From: Actinomycetota bacterium
Lineage (GTDB): Bacteria; Actinomycetota; Aquicultoria; Aquicultorales; JAMCWL01
Reading direction: 5' to 3'
DNA length: 33,947 nt
NCBI GenBank assembly: GCA_023481285.1
Contig: JAMCWL010000008.1
Span: forward strand, 1 to 33,947
A program made the position numbers and the translations under genes. Shown here piece after piece: positions 11,736-28,508 of this stretch; position 1 is the first letter of the stretch; every line of letters starts with the position of its first letter. The notes under the pieces were generated by a model, which was not told where the DNA came from, did not search any database, and saw nothing but the letters and a program-made list of their open reading frames with translations.

Positions 11736-12599
11736 CTAGGAATGGTCAACTGTTCCAAATCGCTGGACAGCGCCCGGCGCCAGCCGCCGGCTCAGCCTCT
11801 CCAGCTCATCGAGTGAATTGAAGTGTATCTCTATTCTACCCCGGCCCGCTTTACCGATCTTCACCTTAACGCGAGCACCGAGGTCCCTACCGATAGTCCG
11901 GCCCAGTTCTTCCCTTTCTGCCAGCGGCGATCGTTGTTGGGCTGGCTGGGCGCTCCAGAGCTTCGCCAGGCTCTCCGTCTGCCTGACCGAGAGGCCCCCG
12001 GTAGTGACCTTCTCGGCCAACTTAAGCTGTTTTTCCTCATCGTCAAGTGAGAGTATCGCCCTAGCATGGCCTGCGGTAAGAGCACCGAGCTGCAGCAACC
12101 CCTGGATGGAGTCGGGGAGTTGGAGGAGCCTCAGGGAGTTCGCAATGGCGCTCCGGCTTTTCCCGACCTTATCAGCCAGCTCCTCTTGGGTCAGACCGAA
12201 CTCTTCCGTCAACTGATGGTAGGCGGTCGCCTCTTCTAGGGCGTTAAGATCTTCTCTCTGGACGTTCTCTACAAGGGCGATCTCCAGCGACGTCAAATCG
12301 GTCGAGCTGCGCACGACCGCGGGCACGCACGTTAGACCAGCCGCCCGGGCCGCTCGCAACCGCCGCTCGCCGGCGACCAGCTCATATTGGGACCCCGCTT
12401 GGCGAACGACGACCGGCTGGATCAACCCGTGCTCTTTAATCGAGGCCGCGAGCTCTGAAATCGCCACCTCGTCGAAGCGCCTGCGTGGCTGTCGCGGGTT
12501 CGGAAGGATGTCATCCACTTCGACTTCGATAATCTTGGCCGAGCCTTCGAGCGCCGGGATCAAGGCGCTTAATCCCTTACCCAGCCCTTTTCTCTGCAC
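11736..12599 (-). CDS. parB: Chromosome-partitioning protein ParB
   Basis: RKGLGKGLSALIP, ILPNPRQPRRRFDE, LIQPVVVR, ELVAGERRLRAARAAGL, EEATAYHQLTEEFGLTQEELADKVGKSRSAIANSLRLLQLP. Confidence 0.95.
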   Translation of the reverse strand: MQRKGLGKGLSALIPALEGSAKIIEVEVDDILPNPRQPRRRFDEVAISELAASIKEHGLIQPVVVRQAGSQYELVAGERRLRAARAAGLTCVPAVVRSSTDLTSLEIALVENVQREDLNALEEATAYHQLTEEFGLTQEELADKVGKSRSAIANSLRLLQLPDSIQGLLQLGALTAGHARAILSLDDEEKQLKLAEKVTTGGLSVRQTESLAKLWSAQPAQQRSPLAEREELGRTIGRDLGARVKVKIGKAGRGRIEIHFNSLDELERLSRRLAPGAVQRFGTVDHS

Positions 12600-13407
12600 G
12601 AGCGATCACCTCCTCGGCTAGCTTCCGATAGGCAATCGTCCCTTTAGACGCCGGGTCATACCGGTTTATGGGCAAGCCGTGGCTCGGCGCCTCCGAAAGG
12701 CGGACGGTCCGTGGCACCACGACGTCGTAGACTAGCTCCCTGAAGAAGCTCCTTACCTCGTCGACAACCTGCTGCGCAAGGCGCGTCCGACTATCGTACA
12801 TCGTCATTAGAACGCCCGCAATCCTCAGTGTCGGATTCAGGTTGGTCTTGACCAGACGAATGCTCTCCAGGAGCTTGCTGAGCCCCTCCAGGGCGTAGTA
12901 CTCACATTGGACGGGGATGACCAGCTCGTCTGCCGCCGTCAGGGCGTTTATGGTCAGCAAGCCGAGCGAGGGAGGACAGTCTATAATGAGGAAATCGTAA
13001 TTGTGTTTAATGGTCTTGATCGCTCTCTTCAGCTTATGCTCTCGCGATAGCGCCGACACGAGCTCGATCTCCGCTCCGGCAAGCTGCAATGTGGCCGGAA
13101 TAGCAGACAGGCCCTCGATTCTCGTGCTCTCTATGAGCTCCTCGATGGCAATTTCATCGGTCAGTGCGTTGTAGATACAGGCGGCTCCGCTCGCCTTGTC
13201 GAGACCGATGCCGCTTGTCGCGTTTCCCTGAGGGTCGAGGTCGACCAGCAAAACCTCCATCCCCGCTTCGGCGATGCTTGCCGAAAGGTTCACCGCCGTC
13301 GTGCTCTTCCCAACGCCGCCCTTCTGGTTGACGATAGCAAACGCGCTCGCCACTCGACTGACCGCTCTCTTTTTCTGCGCAGCTTCCGGGATGGCGATCC
13401 CAGCCAT
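12577..13407 (-). CDS. parA: Chromosome-partitioning ATPase ParA/Soj
   Basis: FAIVNQKGGVGKSTTAVNLSASIAEAGMEVLLVDLDPQGNATSG. Confidence 0.95.
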   Translation of the reverse strand: MAGIAIPEAAQKKRAVSRVASAFAIVNQKGGVGKSTTAVNLSASIAEAGMEVLLVDLDPQGNATSGIGLDKASGAACIYNALTDEIAIEELIESTRIEGLSAIPATLQLAGAEIELVSALSREHKLKRAIKTIKHNYDFLIIDCPPSLGLLTINALTAADELVIPVQCEYYALEGLSKLLESIRLVKTNLNPTLRIAGVLMTMYDSRTRLAQQVVDEVRSFFRELVYDVVVPRTVRLSEAPSHGLPINRYDPASKGTIAYRKLAEEVIARAEKRAG

Positions 13408-14195: not shown

Positions 14196-14228
14196 AAAGG
14201 CCCGGCCGCCCGGCCGGGCCTTTTGTTT
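14191..14228 (-). terminator. Strong, potentially bidirectional terminator after jag
   Basis: 18-bp perfect inverted repeat AAACAAAAGGCCCGGCCG / CGGCCGGGCCTTTTGTTT (14191-14208 / 14211-14228) with A and T tracts on the two sides. Confidence 0.85.
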
Positions 14229-14845
14229 TATCTCGGAACAACTACGACCTCTCGGTCGGGCTCCTCGCCCTCGCTGTGCGTTACTACCTCCGAGTCCTCT
14301 TTGAGAGCAAGGTGGACGGCCCGCCTCTCATAAGAGTTCATGGGCCCGAGCGATACGGGCCTCCCAGTCGTCGTGGCTTCCTCGGCCGCACGTTTCGCCA
14401 GTTTTTCCAGGTTCTCCAGGCGCCGCTCCCGATATCCTTCGATATCGACGATGATTCTCGGGGCGCCGCCAAGCCTGCGAAGCGCGGTGGTGACCACCGT
14501 CTGGAGCGCGGACAAAGTCTCCCCATGTCTTCCTATCAGAAGACCGAGGCCCTCTGCGCCCTTGATCGAAATGAGCACATGCTCTTCTTTTTGCTCGACC
14601 TTCAATTCCGCCTCGAGATCAAGCGCATCCAGAACGGCCTTAAGAAGAGCGGTCGCCGCTTCGACGTGCTGACCATCAACAGCGACGCGAACCAGGGCCT
14701 TTTCGCCGCCGATCCCAAGAAAGCCTCGAGACGGCTCTCTTAAAACCTCCACCTTGACTTGAGAGCGCTCAGCCCCAAGCTTGTCGAGCGCACCTTTAAC
14801 CGCCTCGTCGACGGTATTGCCCTCCTCTTCTACCACGTCGCTCAT
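14228..14845 (-). CDS. jag: Jag/KhpB, R3H-KH RNA-binding protein
   Basis: Jag N-terminus (EEEGNTVDEAVKGALDKLGAERSQVKVEVLREPSRGFLGIGGEKALVRV), KH GLLIGRHGETLSALQTV, R3H LGPMNSYERRAVHLAL. Confidence 0.92.
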   Translation of the reverse strand: MSDVVEEEGNTVDEAVKGALDKLGAERSQVKVEVLREPSRGFLGIGGEKALVRVAVDGQHVEAATALLKAVLDALDLEAELKVEQKEEHVLISIKGAEGLGLLIGRHGETLSALQTVVTTALRRLGGAPRIIVDIEGYRERRLENLEKLAKRAAEEATTTGRPVSLGPMNSYERRAVHLALKEDSEVVTHSEGEEPDREVVVVPR

Positions 14846-15597
14846 TACTCCGCCTCCGCTTGCTTGGACTTCTTTTTGCCGCCCTTAGCCACAGGAGCCG
14901 ACGCCGGCTCCTCCTTCTTGACGAGCTTCAGCATTATCCACTGCTGGACGATCGAGATCAGGTTCGTCGTCACCCAGTAGATAAGAACTCCGGCTGGCAG
15001 GCTCCAGGCGATGAAGACCATAAAGGCGCTCATAAACAGCATCGTCTTTTCCTGCTGCGGGTCGTTCATCATCATCTTTGATGGGATGTACGACGTTACC
15101 GCCATGAGCGCGATTAGCAGCAGATACGGCCAACCTATCACCAATCCCTTGGCGATGCCGCCAGCAAAGGCCATCCCGGGCGCTTTGCCAAGCACCATAC
15201 CGAAAGCCACGGCTTTCTTCAGCGCGTCGAACTGGTAAAGAACCCTGAACAGCGCGAAGAAGACCGGCAACTGGAGCAGGAGGGGCAGGCATCCGCCGAA
15301 CGGATTAACCTTGTGCTCTTGATAGAGCTTCATCATCTCCTGCTGGAGCTTATCTTTATCGTCCTTATACTTCTCCTGCAGCTCCTTCAGCTTGGGTTGC
15401 AGACGCTGCATATCCATCATGGACGTCGTCTGCTTTATCGTAAGCGGAAGCATCAGCAACCTCACCGCGACCGTCAGCAGCACGATCGCGATCCCGTAGC
15501 TCAAGCCGCTCGATAAGCCCAGCCCGCTGACAAAGCCTTGGAAGAACTGGAGGCTGGTCTGTAACAGATCCAACAGTCCCTTCCAGATTTCGGCCAA
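14845..15597 (-). CDS. yidC: Membrane protein insertase YidC/Oxa1
   Basis: YGIAIVLLTVAVRLLMLPLTIKQTTSMMDMQRLQPKLKELQEKYKDDKDKLQQEMMKLYQEHKVNPFGGCLPLLLQLPVFFALFRVLY. Confidence 0.95.
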   Translation of the reverse strand: MAEIWKGLLDLLQTSLQFFQGFVSGLGLSSGLSYGIAIVLLTVAVRLLMLPLTIKQTTSMMDMQRLQPKLKELQEKYKDDKDKLQQEMMKLYQEHKVNPFGGCLPLLLQLPVFFALFRVLYQFDALKKAVAFGMVLGKAPGMAFAGGIAKGLVIGWPYLLLIALMAVTSYIPSKMMMNDPQQEKTMLFMSAFMVFIAWSLPAGVLIYWVTTNLISIVQQWIMLKLVKKEEPASAPVAKGGKKKSKQAEAE

Positions 15598-15633: not shown

Positions 15634-15843
15634 TTACTTTACTGGATCATAGCCGCCCGGATTGAACGGATGGCACCTCAGAAGCCTCCGGACAGCCAGA
15701 TACAAGCCGGTCGCCGCGCCGTACTCCTCAATCGCGTCGATCGCGTAGCTGGAGCACGACGGGTAAAACCGACACCGTGGCGCCCCCAGCGGGGATATAG
15801 CTCTTTGGTACAGCCGAATGACGGCCACTAATATCTTCTTCAT
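15634..15843 (-). CDS. yidD: Membrane protein insertion efficiency factor YidD
   Basis: [64 protein letters not shown]. Confidence 0.95.
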
Positions 15844-16199
15844 GCTCCCTTAACCAAGATTCCGGCCCGCTCTGCGGCCTTAATAAAAGCCCTTTCCACT
15901 TCGCGAAAGGGCTGCCCTGCGATTTCTCGCCTGGCCACGATGACGATGTCCCGATTGTCCGCCAGGCGAGCCTCATTAAGTCGATATGCTTCCCGCAAAA
16001 GTCGCTTGACTCTGTTTCTAACGACCGCGCCGCCGATCTGGCGCCCGACCGTATAACCAATCCTACGAGGACCTGCGGTTCCAAGGGCGATTACCACGAG
16101 GCCCCGCGCCGCTCCTGCCCTTCCCTCCGCGAAGACGCGAGCAAAATCCGCCGTGCGCTTCAGGCTCGCCTCTCTCTTCCTACGCGGAGAGGCGTTCAC
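15840..16199 (-). CDS. rnpA: Ribonuclease P protein component
   Basis: [17 protein letters not shown]...[31 protein letters not shown] start. Overlaps yidD by 4 bp. Confidence 0.9.
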
Positions 16200-16314
16200 G
16201 ATTCTTACGCCTGCGATTTGCGAGAATACGCCGCCCCGCCTTAGTCCTCATCCGGACTCTAAATCCGTGCGTCTTCTTCCTTCTGCGATTATTGGGCTGA
16301 TATGTTCTCTTCAC
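16180..16314 (-). CDS. rpmH: 50S ribosomal protein L34 (not in the supplied ORF track)
   Basis: Manual minus-strand translation from [47 protein letters not shown], 44 aa, a clear L34. Confidence 0.95.
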
Positions 16315-16398
16315 GCTCTACCCTTTCGTCTAAAGAACGTCCCTAATTATATGGATGTCCGCGTTTTGGTGTCAAGAAAGCACGGCCAGCGCTTCTTC

Positions 16399-16745
16399 TG
16401 TGGAAAATGTGCAAAACTCGTGACGGCGCTGGACATCGCGTTTCGCCCGGTTTATCTTATCTCTAGTGGCGCCAGCCTTGAGGTCAACCCCTTGCCAGCA
16501 TTATCCCTGGTAAATGCGGTACTGCCTGGTCTCGGCGGTGACCTAAAGCTGGCGCAGGCTTGAGCTGCTGTTAGAGTAATTTTTGCCGGCGTTAGGCGTT
16601 CTTTTTCATAGTTTTCCATAGGCATGGCTCTTTTCGCAGGCGTAGAGTCGCCTTGTGGGGCAACGCGAGGGGCGAAGGTCTGAAATTTTCTCGCCAATGA
16701 CGAGCTTTTCCCTTTTTCCACAGATGTGGAATTCTCTGTGGAGAA
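16399..16745. promoter_or_regulatory. Candidate oriC segment with DnaA-box-like sites
   Basis: TGTGGAAAA (16399-16407), TTTTCCACA (16714-16722), TGTGGAATT (16725-16733) and TGTGGAGAA (16737-16745) are 7-8/9 matches to TTATCCACA or its complement. They lie at the transcription divergence point between rpmH and the dnaA operon. Confidence 0.45.
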
Positions 16746-16893
16746 AGAGCTCTTTTAGCCTGCTCAGCCTATGCCGACGGGCTCTTTCTAAATATACGAG
16801 GGTGGACTTCTGGCCCGTCAAGGGCTCGGCCTGCTTGTTAATTTCAACCTTGATATCCGGTGGAATAACGGATTCCAAGGGGTAGGATGACAC

Positions 16894-17673
16894 ATGTTGA
16901 AAGATTTTCTGGAAAAGATTGAGGCGCGAGGGGAGAATGGTCCTGAAAGCTCAGCCCTTGCGCCAGCCCGTCTTGCTATCTACGACTCGCCGGCTGTCGC
17001 GCCCCGCGTCGTCGAGCTTACGGCGGATGATTACGATGGTTTTATCGGTTTAATCGCGACCAAAACGTACCAGTTTTCGCAGGAAAAAGGGGGCAAGCTT
17101 CCGTTTACGATCATAAAAGAGGTCATCGAGAATCTTATTCACGCATATTTTAAAGAGATCGTCATTACCATCCTCGACGAAGGGAACACCATCCGCATCT
17201 CCGACCAGGGGCCGGGAATCGTAAATAAGGATAAAGCGTTCGAGCCCGGATTTTCGACCGCGACGCAGGACATGAAGAGGTTTATCCGGGGGGTCGGCAG
17301 CGGTCTTCCAATCGTCAAGGAGTCTCTCTCTCTTCTCGGAGGAGCCGTAATCATCGAGGACAACCTCTCGAGCGGGACGGTGGTCACCATCCGCGTTCCA
17401 GGCAAGCGCGAGACCGCGCCCGGACCCGAGCCTTCAGATGGCGATCAGCCGTGCTACCCCCTTTCCTACCGGCAAAAAAAGGTTCTCTCGCTCATCATGG
17501 AGCTTTCAATTGCCGGTCCCTCTATCATCGCCAAATCTCTAGGCATTAGCCTTAGCACCGTATACAGGGATTTGCTATACTTGGAGGGGCAAGGCCTCGT
17601 CGACTACGACCGCCAAGGAAAGAGATCTCTCACGCCCCGCGGCATTGAGCTTCTCAGCGGCCGTTCAAATTAA
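16894..17673 (+). CDS. GHKL-type ATPase (SpoIIAB-like) fused to a C-terminal winged-helix domain
   Basis: N box [15 protein letters not shown]1 ISDQGPGI, G2 [29 protein letters not shown]; then [61 protein letters not shown]. Confidence 0.8.
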
Positions 17674-17687
17674 GGACTGGAGCTTTA

Positions 17688-19031
17688 ATGGACGAACTCT
17701 CCGGCATCTGGGAAGGCGCCCTCGAAGTCATTCAGCGTCAACTGAATACCCCGACCTTCAAGACCTGGTTTGAGAATACTTCTCCCATATCGATAGATGA
17801 CAGCACCCTTACAATTTCGGCTCCCAGTCCATTCGCGAAGGACTGGCTGGAAACCAGATATTCGAGCCTCATCGCCGACGCATTAAGGCAAGTAACCGGA
17901 AGCCCCATCAATGTCCGCGTGATCGTTGGCGATATTCCTAGCGGGAATGGCGCGTTGAGCCAGCCGACCGTCGACGCCTCGACGGCGGTCCGGCAGCCGC
18001 CCCAGGCGCTGAACCCCAAATATACCTTCGAGTCTTTTGTCATCGGTGGCTCGAACCGGTTTGCTCATGCTGCCGCTCTAGCGGTCGCTGAAAAGCCGGC
18101 GCAGGCTTACAACCCCCTCTTTATTTACGGGGGGGTCGGGCTTGGCAAGACACACCTTTTGCAGGCAATCGCTCACTATGTTCAACTGCACCATCCTCAC
18201 CTACGAACCAGGTATGTCTCTTGCGAAAAATTTCTAAATGATTTTGTCGCCTCCATCAGGGATAAGGATAAGATCATCGGCTTTCAAAAGCGCTACCGCT
18301 ATAATGACGTTCTTCTAGTCGACGATATACAATTCCTCGAGAATAAGGAGGGGACCCAGGAGGAGTTCTTCCATACCTTTAACACTCTTTATGAGGCGGG
18401 TAAGCAGATCGTCATCTCGAGCGACCGCCCTCCCAAGGATATTGCTACCCTCGAGGACAGATTAAGAAGTAGGTTTGAATGGGGCTTGATTACAGACATA
18501 CAGCCCCCTGACCTTGAAACGAGAATTGCCATCCTCTCGAAGAAGGCACAGCATGAGGGAGTCGACGTGCCGTATGACGTCCTGGAATTCATCGCCGCCA
18601 AAATACTGTCGAACATCCGAGAGATCGAGGGCGCGTTGATCAGGGTCCTTGCTTTTTCATCCCTTACGACCAGCCCGATAACCGTAGATCTGGCAAGAGA
18701 GGTTCTTAAAGACGTCTTTCCTGATAGAGCAACGCGGCCAATTTCCATACAATCCATCGCCCAGGAGGTCTGTCACTACTTCGCCATATCAAAGAGTCAA
18801 CTGACGGGCAATAAGAGAAGCCAGTCCGTCGTATACCCGAGGCAGATCGCCATGTACCTCTCTCGAGACCTGACCGACATGTCCCTTCCAAAGATTGGGG
18901 AGGAGTTCGGCGGCCGGGACCACACCACAGTCATGTATGCCGTCTCAAAGATTGAAAAGTTGATAAATACGAAGCGCGAGGTTTATAACCAGATTCAAGA
19001 ATTAACCAATCGCATTAAACAAAAGGGTTGA
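17688..19031 (+). CDS. dnaA: Chromosomal replication initiator DnaA
   Basis: [63 protein letters not shown]. Confidence 0.97.
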
Positions 19032-19214
19032 TTGTGGAGAGGCCTGTTAATATAAGCGGGGATTTCGATATTTTTAACAGCGGTAAACACTTGATCCGCA
19101 GCGCTCTCTACAGGGAAGCTCTTTTCTCACGTCGTGCTCTACTATTAACTAACAGCTTCCACAGCCCTTACTACTACATACTACCTCTTTAATGTTATAG
19201 AACGGAGGAGCTAA

Positions 19215-20309
19215 ATGAGGATAAAGGTTTCACAGGAGGAGCTTAACTCGGCAGTTTCAATCGCCCTTAGGGCGATATCGATGAGAAGTATTCTACCTAT
19301 TTTATCCGGGGCAAGGCTGGTGGTTAACGAGGGAAAGCTAAATATATCGGCAACCGACCTAGATATAACTCTCCACTGCTCGATCGCTGTGAATGTGGAA
19401 GAGGAAGGAAGGGCCGTCATCCCAGCGAAGCTCCTCGGGGAAGCGGTGAAGAGCCTGCCATCAAGCATGGTCGATTTGTCGGTGGATAACAATGACGGAC
19501 AGGCGAGCATATCTTGTGAAAATGCCCACTACGTAATAAAAACGATGCCCTTAGAAGATTATCCTCAATTACCGGAGAGCGATATGAAAGGGGCGATAAG
19601 ATTATCAGGGGAAGTGCTCTCTGAAGCGATAAGGCAAGTAATAAAGGCTGTAGGAAGAGACGAGGCCAGACCGACGCTCGGCGGCGTCCTTTTCACAGCG
19701 AACGGCGAAAAGATGAAGATGGTGAGTACGGACTCTTATAGGCTTGCCGTTAAAGAGATCAACACGGAAGGAGGGGAGGGAGAGCTTGAGCTAATCATAC
19801 CAGGGCGAGCGGTTGAAGAGCTGGGAAAATTAACTGGAGAAGATAGTATATCGATGAATGTTGGAGATGGTCAGGTTTTCTATAAAGCGGGGGAAACGGA
19901 ACTCATATCGCGGCTTATTGAGGGGCAGTTTCCTAAATACGAACAACTGCTGCCGAACGAGTGGGCGACCAGGGTAAGATTCGATAAAGAGATGATGATA
20001 TCCGCGATCAAAAGGATATCGGTTATCTCCCCGACCACCGCTATAGTAAGAGTCGTGATTGACGGAGATGTGATGAAGTTTAATTCGTATGCGCAGGATA
20101 TAGGCTCCGCCGATGATGAGGTGAGATGCACGACGGAAGGGGAGAAGGTAGAGATAGCCTTCAACGCACAGTACTTACTGGACGGATTAACGGCTGTTCG
20201 GGGAAGTGAGGCATATATAGAAATGAGCTCGCCGATAAAACCCGCGGTGATAAAGTCGACCGACAAACAAGATTATATATACCTCATCATGCCGATAAGG
20301 CTTAGTTGA
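19215..20309 (+). CDS. dnaN: DNA polymerase III beta sliding clamp
   Basis: Clamp-like translation ending YLIMPIRLS, located after dnaA. Confidence 0.95.
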   Translation: MRIKVSQEELNSAVSIALRAISMRSILPILSGARLVVNEGKLNISATDLDITLHCSIAVNVEEEGRAVIPAKLLGEAVKSLPSSMVDLSVDNNDGQASISCENAHYVIKTMPLEDYPQLPESDMKGAIRLSGEVLSEAIRQVIKAVGRDEARPTLGGVLFTANGEKMKMVSTDSYRLAVKEINTEGGEGELELIIPGRAVEELGKLTGEDSISMNVGDGQVFYKAGETELISRLIEGQFPKYEQLLPNEWATRVRFDKEMMISAIKRISVISPTTAIVRVVIDGDVMKFNSYAQDIGSADDEVRCTTEGEKVEIAFNAQYLLDGLTAVRGSEAYIEMSSPIKPAVIKSTDKQDYIYLIMPIRLS

Positions 20310-26631: not shown

Positions 26632-27051
26632 ATGCAACAGCCATACGAGACCATAAACCATACCGCCGACGTCGGCCTCAAGGCCAGTGGAGTGACGCTG
26701 GCCGAGGCCTTTGAGAACGCCGCTACGGGCATGTTCTCCCTCATCTCCGATTTGGAAAATGTCGGTTCCGGCGCGGCCCTCGACGTCTACGTCGAAGCGG
26801 AGGACCGGGAGACGCTCCTCGTCGAGTGGCTCAACGAGCTCCTCTACCTGTTCGAGGTCGACCACTGGATATTCAAGCACTTTAGGATAGAGGATACTGA
26901 CGGTGAGCACTACTTAAGAGCGAAGGCCTTTGGAGAAGAGCTTGACCTGGGCCGACATCAGATAAAAATCCAAATCAAGGCGGTCACGTACCACATGCTC
27001 AAAGTCGAGCATGACGACCGTTGGATCGCCCAGGTAATCTTCGATGTTTGA
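26632..27051 (+). CDS. Archease
   Basis: YETINHTADVGLKASG...FSLISDL...LLVEWLNELLYLFEVDHWIFKHF...KAVTYHMLKVE. Confidence 0.92.
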   Translation: MQQPYETINHTADVGLKASGVTLAEAFENAATGMFSLISDLENVGSGAALDVYVEAEDRETLLVEWLNELLYLFEVDHWIFKHFRIEDTDGEHYLRAKAFGEELDLGRHQIKIQIKAVTYHMLKVEHDDRWIAQVIFDV

Positions 27052-27065
27052 GTTGTGGAGGGGCA

Positions 27066-28508
27066 GTGGAGCCGGAGCGAATATCCAAGCACCTTTGGAG
27101 ATTGCCCACCGATTATAAGGCCGGCATGCGGGTTCCGGGGCTGGTCTTTGCGAATGAGCACCTCATCAAAAAGGCCGAAGAGGACAGGGCCCTTGACCAG
27201 GTGGCAAACGTCGCCTTTCTTCCCGGAATCGTCGGTGCCTCGATAGCCATGCCTGACATCCACTGGGGCTACGGCTTTCCGATAGGTGGAGTGGCCGCAA
27301 CCGACCCGGAGGCCGGCGGCGTCATCTCGCCGGGAGGGGTAGGCTTCGATATCAACTGCGGCGTCCGTCTCGTCAAGACGAACCTCCGTGCAGCGGAGGT
27401 TGCGAACACGATCCCCCAACTCCTGCAAGAGCTCGGACGAAACATACCCAAGGGCGTCGGCTCCAAGGGGCGAATAAAGGTCAGACGCAATGAGATGGAA
27501 GAGCTCATGGTTCAGGGGGTCGCTTGGGCCATAGGGCACGGCTATGGGTGGGCGGAGGACGCCGAGCTCTGCGAGGAAGGCGGGCGCCTGGAGGGGGCGG
27601 ATCCGTCAAGGGTCTCCGGCCGGGCTTTCGAGCGAGGCGCGGATCAGGTGGGCACCCTGGGCAGCGGCAACCACTTCCTGGAGGTCCAGGTCGTCGAGGA
27701 GATATACGAGCGCGCGACGGCCGAATCGTTCGGGTTGTTCGACGGCCAAATGGTCGTCATGATTCACTCGGGCTCTAGAGGCGTCGGGCATCAGATAGCG
27801 ACGGATTACCTCAAGATTATGGACAGGGTCGTCGCCAGGGCCAAGATATCTCTTCCCGACCGGCAGCTTGCCGCCGCCCCCGTCGACTCTCCGGAGGGGC
27901 GTGACTACTTGGCCGCGATGGCCTGCGCGGTGAACTTCGCTTTTGTAAACAGGCAGGCGCTCATGTACTGGGCCCGCGACTCTTTCGAGTACGTCTTCAA
28001 ACGGAGCGCCAAGTCGATGGGAATGCACCTGCTTTACGATGTCTGTCACAACATCGCTAAATTTGAAGAACACGAAGTAGAAGGGGCGAGGAAACGCCTC
28101 TGCGTCCACAGGAAAGGGGCGACCCGGGCCTTCGGTCCCGGCCACGCGGCCCTGCCGCAAGCATACCGGGAGACCGGCCAACCCGTTCTGATCCCGGGCG
28201 ACATGGAGACGGGTTCCTACGTTCTCGTCGGCACGGAGGAGAGCATGAAGCTGGCCTGGGGATCGGCCTGTCACGGGGCCGGGCGGCTGCTCTCCCGGGG
28301 AGCCGCCAAGCGCCAGATCAAGGGGGATGTTCTCAGGCGAGAACTCGAAGAGCGCGGCATTATCGTTATCGCGGGCCACATGGGCCTCCTGGCCGAAGAG
28401 GCGCCCGCGGCCTACAAGGACGTCGGCGAGGTCGTTGAGATAACCCACGAAGCGGGGCTTGCCAGGAAGGTCGCCCGCTTAAGGCCCCTCGGAGTCGTCA
28501 AAGGCTAA
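27066..28508 (+). CDS. rtcB: RNA-splicing ligase RtcB
   Basis: MPDIHWGYGFPIGGVAATDPEAGGVISPGGVGFDINCGVRL, GTLGSGNHFLEVQ, MIHSGSRGVGHQI, CVHRKGATRAFGPG, GSACHGAGRLLSR. GTG start at 27066 after GGAGGGG (track start 27021). Confidence 0.95.
   Translation: MEPERISKHLWRLPTDYKAGMRVPGLVFANEHLIKKAEEDRALDQVANVAFLPGIVGASIAMPDIHWGYGFPIGGVAATDPEAGGVISPGGVGFDINCGVRLVKTNLRAAEVANTIPQLLQELGRNIPKGVGSKGRIKVRRNEMEELMVQGVAWAIGHGYGWAEDAELCEEGGRLEGADPSRVSGRAFERGADQVGTLGSGNHFLEVQVVEEIYERATAESFGLFDGQMVVMIHSGSRGVGHQIATDYLKIMDRVVARAKISLPDRQLAAAPVDSPEGRDYLAAMACAVNFAFVNRQALMYWARDSFEYVFKRSAKSMGMHLLYDVCHNIAKFEEHEVEGARKRLCVHRKGATRAFGPGHAALPQAYRETGQPVLIPGDMETGSYVLVGTEESMKLAWGSACHGAGRLLSRGAAKRQIKGDVLRRELEERGIIVIAGHMGLLAEEAPAAYKDVGEVVEITHEAGLARKVARLRPLGVVKG

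Follow-up and report, generated by a model that had tools for sequence, protein, structure and literature searches.

Related GHKL proteins and regulators of DnaA

Regulators of the COG2865/DIP2311 type combine an AlbA-like domain, a GHKL domain and a helix-turn-helix (HTH). SpoIIAB, whose N-box has the form E-x3-N-x3-H, is a kinase of SpoIIAA and a binding partner of sigma-F. YabA, SirA, Hda, Soj, SeqA, DiaA, PrpR and IciA control the expression of dnaA or the activity of DnaA; we know of no DnaA regulator or dnaA repressor that is a GHKL-winged-helix protein encoded in the dnaA operon. How the state of the cell feeds into initiation is little understood except in E. coli, B. subtilis, Caulobacter and mycobacteria. 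PrpR is a metabolic regulator of dnaA in M. tuberculosis (PMC3982210).

The window (the whole stretch of DNA that was analysed, 33,947 nt from a member of the Actinomycetota) encodes a protein, P0001, in which a GHKL ATPase domain is joined to a winged helix. Its candidate role is the same as that of the DnaA regulators named above, and its sequence is unrelated to theirs. YabA gave no match in this genome and Hda none above cut-off, so these direct DnaA inhibitors are not evident here. Proteins with GHKL and HTH domains are a known kind; a dedicated member in the dnaA operon is undescribed as far as the open-access literature shows, where no published description of a dnaA-linked GHKL-winged-helix protein was found.

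Gene neighbourhood

The genes around P0001 are:

14228-14845, on the rpmH side: jag
14845-15597, on the rpmH side: yidC
After rnpA: yidD, named from its translation without a family search
15840-16199, after rpmH: rnpA, named in the same way
16183-16314, minus strand: rpmH, GTG start, divergent from P0001, named in the same way
16894-17673, plus strand: GHKL ATPase-winged-helix gene (P0001), 259 aa, ATG start, heading the dnaA operon
17688-19031, plus strand: dnaA (TIGR00362, E=4.9e-170)
19215-20309, plus strand: dnaN (TIGR00663, E=3.1e-93)

An earlier note on this DNA had described an open reading frame ending 14 bp before the dnaA start, and it is present exactly so: 14 nt separate the P0001 stop codon from the dnaA ATG at 17688. 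The divergent side upstream holds rpmH, rnpA, yidD, yidC, jag, rsmG, parA and parB; downstream are dnaA, dnaN, recF, gyrB and gyrA. This is a classical origin neighbourhood.

Domain architecture of P0001

The protein has two domains:

16966-17403, plus strand: GHKL domain, residues ~25-170
17461-17661, plus strand: winged helix, residues ~190-256, with recognition helix ISLSTxYRDL and wing GKRxLT

The fusion of these domains, proposed in the earlier note, is real. Pfam HATPase_c (PF02518) matches residues 71-170 of P0001 (E=3.6e-14) and is matched in 65 of 65 aligned orthologues. The N-box (E76-N80-H83), G1 (D104-x-G106-x-G108) and G2 (G133-x-x-x-G137) motifs of the GHKL superfamily are found throughout these 65 sequences, and the named residues, together with G150 and G161, are invariant; in GHKL proteins these positions include the general base (E76), the Mg ligand and both glycine motifs. 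All residues expected to be necessary for binding ATP and Mg are thus invariant in the family, and ATP binding and hydrolysis are predicted. R26, A28, P70, L198, G208, L227, L230, E231, R244 and G250 are near-invariant. The N-terminal beta hairpin (residues 25-42) is a conserved extra in which R26, A28, Y30 and P37 are strongly conserved.

The winged helix of P0001 alone finds only sub-threshold best matches (Fe_dep_repress, 0.0017; HTH_IclR, 0.0019); it is clear in the orthologues (TrmB, 4.3e-9; HVO_A0261_N, 4.3e-8). Profile matches, the alignment and an AlphaFold model all give a three-helix and wing fold with a conserved recognition helix. The model, a structure prediction of the kind the earlier note had suggested, is confident for both domains (mean pLDDT 87, most of both domains >90), including the three helices and wing of the C-terminal domain; the linker (about 170-189) is not confident. 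Before the N-box, the model and the alignment have one hairpin and one helix. The histidine phospho-acceptor domain that had been reported as absent is indeed not matched: a Pfam scan of P0001 detected no HisKA/DHp, and a family search no HisKA in the orthologues. Families f20, f27 and f43 have a longer linker with the two domains unchanged, and the recognition helix is altered in f20, f27, f43 and f22. The GHKL motifs are kept, at ~40-50% identity, even in lineages with an extremely divergent DnaA.

Comparison with COG2865, SpoIIAB and histidine kinases

Like COG2865/DIP2311 (PDB 3lmm), P0001 has GHKL followed by HTH in one chain. A fold search with P0001 returned histidine-kinase catalytic domains and DIP2311; 3lmm is the sole listed fold match which spans the full length (270 columns, TMq 0.48, E 2.2e-7). 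However, P0001 is only 259 aa, about half as long, its HATPase_c motifs are intact, it is locked to dnaA, and the Pfam scan matched neither an N-terminal AlbA_2 domain nor a divergent HATPase_c_4.

P0001 resembles SpoIIAB and RsbW in being built on a small soluble GHKL domain, with the same order of strand, helix and N-box helix in the model. It has profile matches to the anti-sigma F structures 1th8 (E=1.1e-4), 1l0o and 1til. It differs in its fusion to a winged helix and in the spacing of its N-box, which is E-x3-N-x2-H and not E-x3-N-x3-H. Its score against the SpoIIAB model TIGR01925 is 25.5 bits, where the curated cut-off is 135, and dnaA alone is linked to it rather than a sigma and an anti-anti-sigma factor in the operon.

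Sensor histidine kinases and CheA provide the closest matches to the ATPase domain, in sequence and in fold. P0001 shares HATPase_c with histidine kinases but has no HisKA/DHp dimerisation and phospho-acceptor domain, no sensor and no linked response regulator, and carries a C-terminal domain of DNA-binding type instead. By the tests run, P0001 appears to be neither a histidine kinase, nor a SpoIIAB, nor a member of COG2865.

Distribution and linkage to dnaA

The survey covered 247 genomes, all from one phylum, with a match threshold of 1e-8. The phylum is taken to be the Actinomycetota, since the dnaA of a member with a 9.2-Mb genome has its best matches in Nonomuraea, Tsukamurella, Nocardia and Arthrobacter. 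P0001 matched in 99 of these; the matches in G053 and G173, which are weak, lie in long frames and resemble ordinary kinases, were rejected as orthologues, leaving 97 orthologues in 20 families, in single copy per genome. Seventy ATPase loci were examined, of which 67 were testable, with dnaA within the available sequence. In all 67, dnaA is the next gene after the ATPase gene, on the same strand. The gap between the genes has a median of 15 nt (range -4 to 247, with some overlaps of 1-4 nt); an outlying value of 486 is artefactual and comes from a dnaA with an in-frame stop. The three other loci end at a contig end, and in one of these genomes (G196) dnaA starts at base 19 of the same contig. 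At locus L067 (G004:C39), an in-frame TAA breaks the dnaA open reading frame, which is either a pseudogene or misassembled; the ATPase gene upstream is intact.

Loss of the linkage to dnaA in other genomes had been named beforehand as an outcome that would count against the earlier note, as had the protein proving to be an ordinary anti-sigma factor. The linkage held at 67/67 testable loci within the phylum. No sigma or anti-anti-sigma factor is linked to the gene, around which only dnaA and the yidC-jag side are conserved.

The gene is missing from nine genomes within the 20 families: seven of these also have no dnaA match (incomplete assemblies), one has a weak dnaA match only, and G015 is a clear loss. 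The rpmH-dnaA spacers of G015 and of G181, from the same class, contain no recognisable gene remnant, and HMM and tblastn searches found no divergent remnants in gene-free genomes. Several lineages live without the gene. On the DnaA tree, its presence or absence requires 7 changes or more, of which supported branches force 6, compared with 18 in shuffles. Gene-free crown lineages cluster together inside gene-bearing ones on this tree, the root of which is arbitrary and some branches of which are long; this nesting fits early presence and several losses. Plasmids, phages and viral contigs hold no close relatives of P0001, just weak kinase-like matches, and an origin from mobile elements is therefore rejected. 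An exact-peptide scan of a genome contig collection gave two weak Providencia matches (residues 87-187, mainly the ATPase domain; 548-aa open frames); it missed even 64%-identical relatives and is thus uninformative on distribution.

Promoter region and origin

Exact DnaA boxes are found in the spacer between rpmH and the ATPase gene:

16714-16745: triple DnaA-box module TTTTCCACA-GA-TGTGGAATT-CTC-TGTGGAGAA, in the operon promoter region
16399-16407, minus strand: one more exact TTTTCCACA box, in the same spacer

The module, searched as TCCACA-N1-3-TGTGGA-N4-8-TGTGGA, occurs upstream of the ATPase gene at 33 of 69 loci and in none of the shuffles. Seven of 20 gene-free genomes have it immediately before dnaA, so 16321-16893 is more plausibly taken as the operon's DnaA-box promoter. 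The ATPase gene looks to be placed between an apparent dnaA autoregulatory promoter and dnaA, which supports a shared transcript, presumably under DnaA control. That DnaA regulates its own promoter is established for a number of bacteria, among them Streptomyces lividans and slow-growing mycobacteria (PMC8203912).

The suggestion that 16321-16893 is the binding site of P0001 itself found no support. When the 420 bp upstream were searched for k-mers and inverted repeats in 20 families, DnaA boxes were all that emerged, and the winged helix is thus without a demonstrated target. Near the start codon, a second block (TGTTRATAAC-N2-GGGGATAA) was rejected as a site; it reads as degenerate DnaA boxes and is confined to close relatives. 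The same spacer has a sigma-70 consensus promoter directed towards rpmH (16346-16375, minus strand; a perfect 12/12, TTGACA-18-TATAAT), which is back to back with the dnaA-side promoter region.

An element of a different kind is present on the other side of dnaA:

19155-19185, plus strand: BUS-like origin-unwinding element in the dnaA-dnaN spacer, with DnaA-box-like TTCCACA, GC spacer and DnaA-trios TTACTACTACATACTACC

The layout of box, GC spacer and trios is that of the described basal unwinding system (PMC8287927). The pattern is found in the dnaA-dnaN spacer in 10 of 62 sequences (the window and nine relatives), many downstream stretches being short, and in 0 of 67 upstream spacers; looser versions can be seen by eye in further loci. 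GC skew changes sign near 19 kb of the window. Among f19 loci with enough dnaA-dnaN spacer sequence (family loci L036-L038 and L074), about 13-14 near-perfect TTATCCACA boxes lie within 350 bp of this spacer and are followed by a DnaA-trio array; the f19 ATPase promoter has three DnaA boxes. Because of the BUS-like element, the GC-skew switch and the distribution of boxes in f19, the unwinding site is placed downstream of dnaA: the dnaA-dnaN spacer, not the region upstream of the ATPase gene, appears to hold the unwinding element of oriC. The claim that the gene directly follows the origin thus holds for the DnaA boxes of the upstream spacer but not for the BUS-like element and the GC-skew switch, which are in or near the dnaA-dnaN spacer. 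The f19 dnaA-dnaN spacer is an unusually clear origin in its own right.

Covariation with DnaA

Evolutionary distances of the ATPase follow those of DnaN (r 0.90) more than those of DnaA (r 0.70), and thus give no hint that it co-evolved specially with the DnaA protein; rate co-evolution of the two was rejected as not above the DnaN background. In families f20, f27 and f43 (L040-L053), DnaA is extremely divergent, with long insertions and an altered domain IV, and upstream most of the usual TTATCCACA boxes have given way to TTTTCAACA-like or CTGAATA-like repeats. Judged from these sequences, DnaA-box specificity would have switched naturally within the phylum in these three families. Their winged-helix changes coincide with the changed domain IV and the altered boxes. 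They form one DnaA clade, so the covariation counts as about one event. In f22, the winged helix is changed and DnaA is normal, and covariation between recognition helix and DnaA box was rejected as a general rule.

Proposed function and alternatives

A dedicated link of the gene to dnaA or to initiation is likely. Since it is a single-copy gene directly before dnaA in essentially every carrier, it probably helps to control the timing or strength of the start of chromosome replication. We lean, with some reserve, towards a dedicated regulatory role for P0001, the product of the first gene of the dnaA operon, in the supply of DnaA, in replication initiation or in both. ATP-gated DNA binding is a moderately likely mechanism. 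Coupling of ATP state to dnaA expression or initiation would be the most economical reading; we infer that P0001 may sense "energy or stress". Linkage alone could mean co-expression, not regulation.

In such a mechanism, P0001 and dnaA would be carried on one transcript under DnaA autoregulation, as suggested by the position of the gene after the DnaA-box promoter and 14 nt before dnaA. The intact GHKL site, with its invariant residues, would bind ATP and Mg, with E76 as general base. Binding or hydrolysis of ATP might then flip the GHKL domain between monomer and dimer, or between a closed and an open form, perhaps by way of the conserved N-terminal hairpin, and this state would set the binding of paired winged helices to DNA at the dnaA promoter or oriC. 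The outcome would be feedback on initiation or on the expression of dnaA, responsive to nucleotide state or to a bound partner, for instance DnaA.

That partner role could also be the whole function of P0001, as an anti-initiator or chaperone-like protein: a GHKL domain of SpoIIAB type would bind or phosphorylate DnaA, and the winged helix would be an origin anchor or a protein-protein module. The 1-4 nt overlaps with dnaA in some families are consistent with this, as are the SpoIIAB-type layout with its match to 1th8 (E=1.1e-4) and the changed winged helix where DnaA domain IV diverges (f20, f27, f43). However, the closer fit of ATPase distances to DnaN than to DnaA weakens it; the GHKL motifs persist at ~40-50% identity beside extremely divergent DnaA, the f22 winged helix is altered alongside a normal DnaA, and the TIGR01925 score is 25.5 against a cut-off of 135. 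We consider this explanation rather unlikely.

It is more doubtful still that P0001 regulates the transcription of other genes (stress or cell-cycle genes, for example) in response to ATP, has no direct role in initiation and is encoded in the dnaA operon to keep its level in step with growth and replication. Its winged helix is like those of ordinary regulators (TrmB, IclR, DeoR), and a specific site near dnaA was not found; against this, dnaA is the only gene to which it is linked across 20 families, and it is in single copy and has its promoter in common with dnaA. It is very improbable that P0001 is just an anti-sigma factor or orphan histidine kinase fragment of the ordinary sort, near dnaA by mere chance. 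The similarity of the ATPase domain alone to histidine kinases and CheA points that way, but the reading is largely refuted by the absence of HisKA, the constant fusion to a winged helix, the perfect linkage to dnaA and a conserved neighbourhood without receiver or sigma partner.

Evolution and significance

There is perhaps an even chance that the dedicated regulator favoured here represents an ancient class: an ATP-gated GHKL-winged-helix switch whose gene has preceded dnaA from a point close to the base of the Actinomycetota. Deep lineages, probably with gut Coriobacteriia among them, would have kept it, and it would have disappeared at the root of the crown actinobacteria. Such a loss, in the better-studied crown group, would explain why model organisms never revealed the gene. 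A single-copy ATP-binding regulator permanently joined to dnaA in many deep lineages is a concrete, testable candidate, and cultivable carriers are probably to be found among Coriobacteriia-type genomes. The gene is also a marker for the timing of its loss towards the crown actinobacteria.

Other features of the window

An RtcB-related protein (27021-28508, plus strand) is encoded after gyrA and a small conserved open reading frame. It scores 721 bits to an intein-containing RtcB-like model, is shorter than that model and shows no sign of an intein. The ParB-family gene at 11736-12599 (minus strand) scores best against the nucleoid-occlusion (Noc) model, yet under its cut-off, and adjoins parA (12577-13407).
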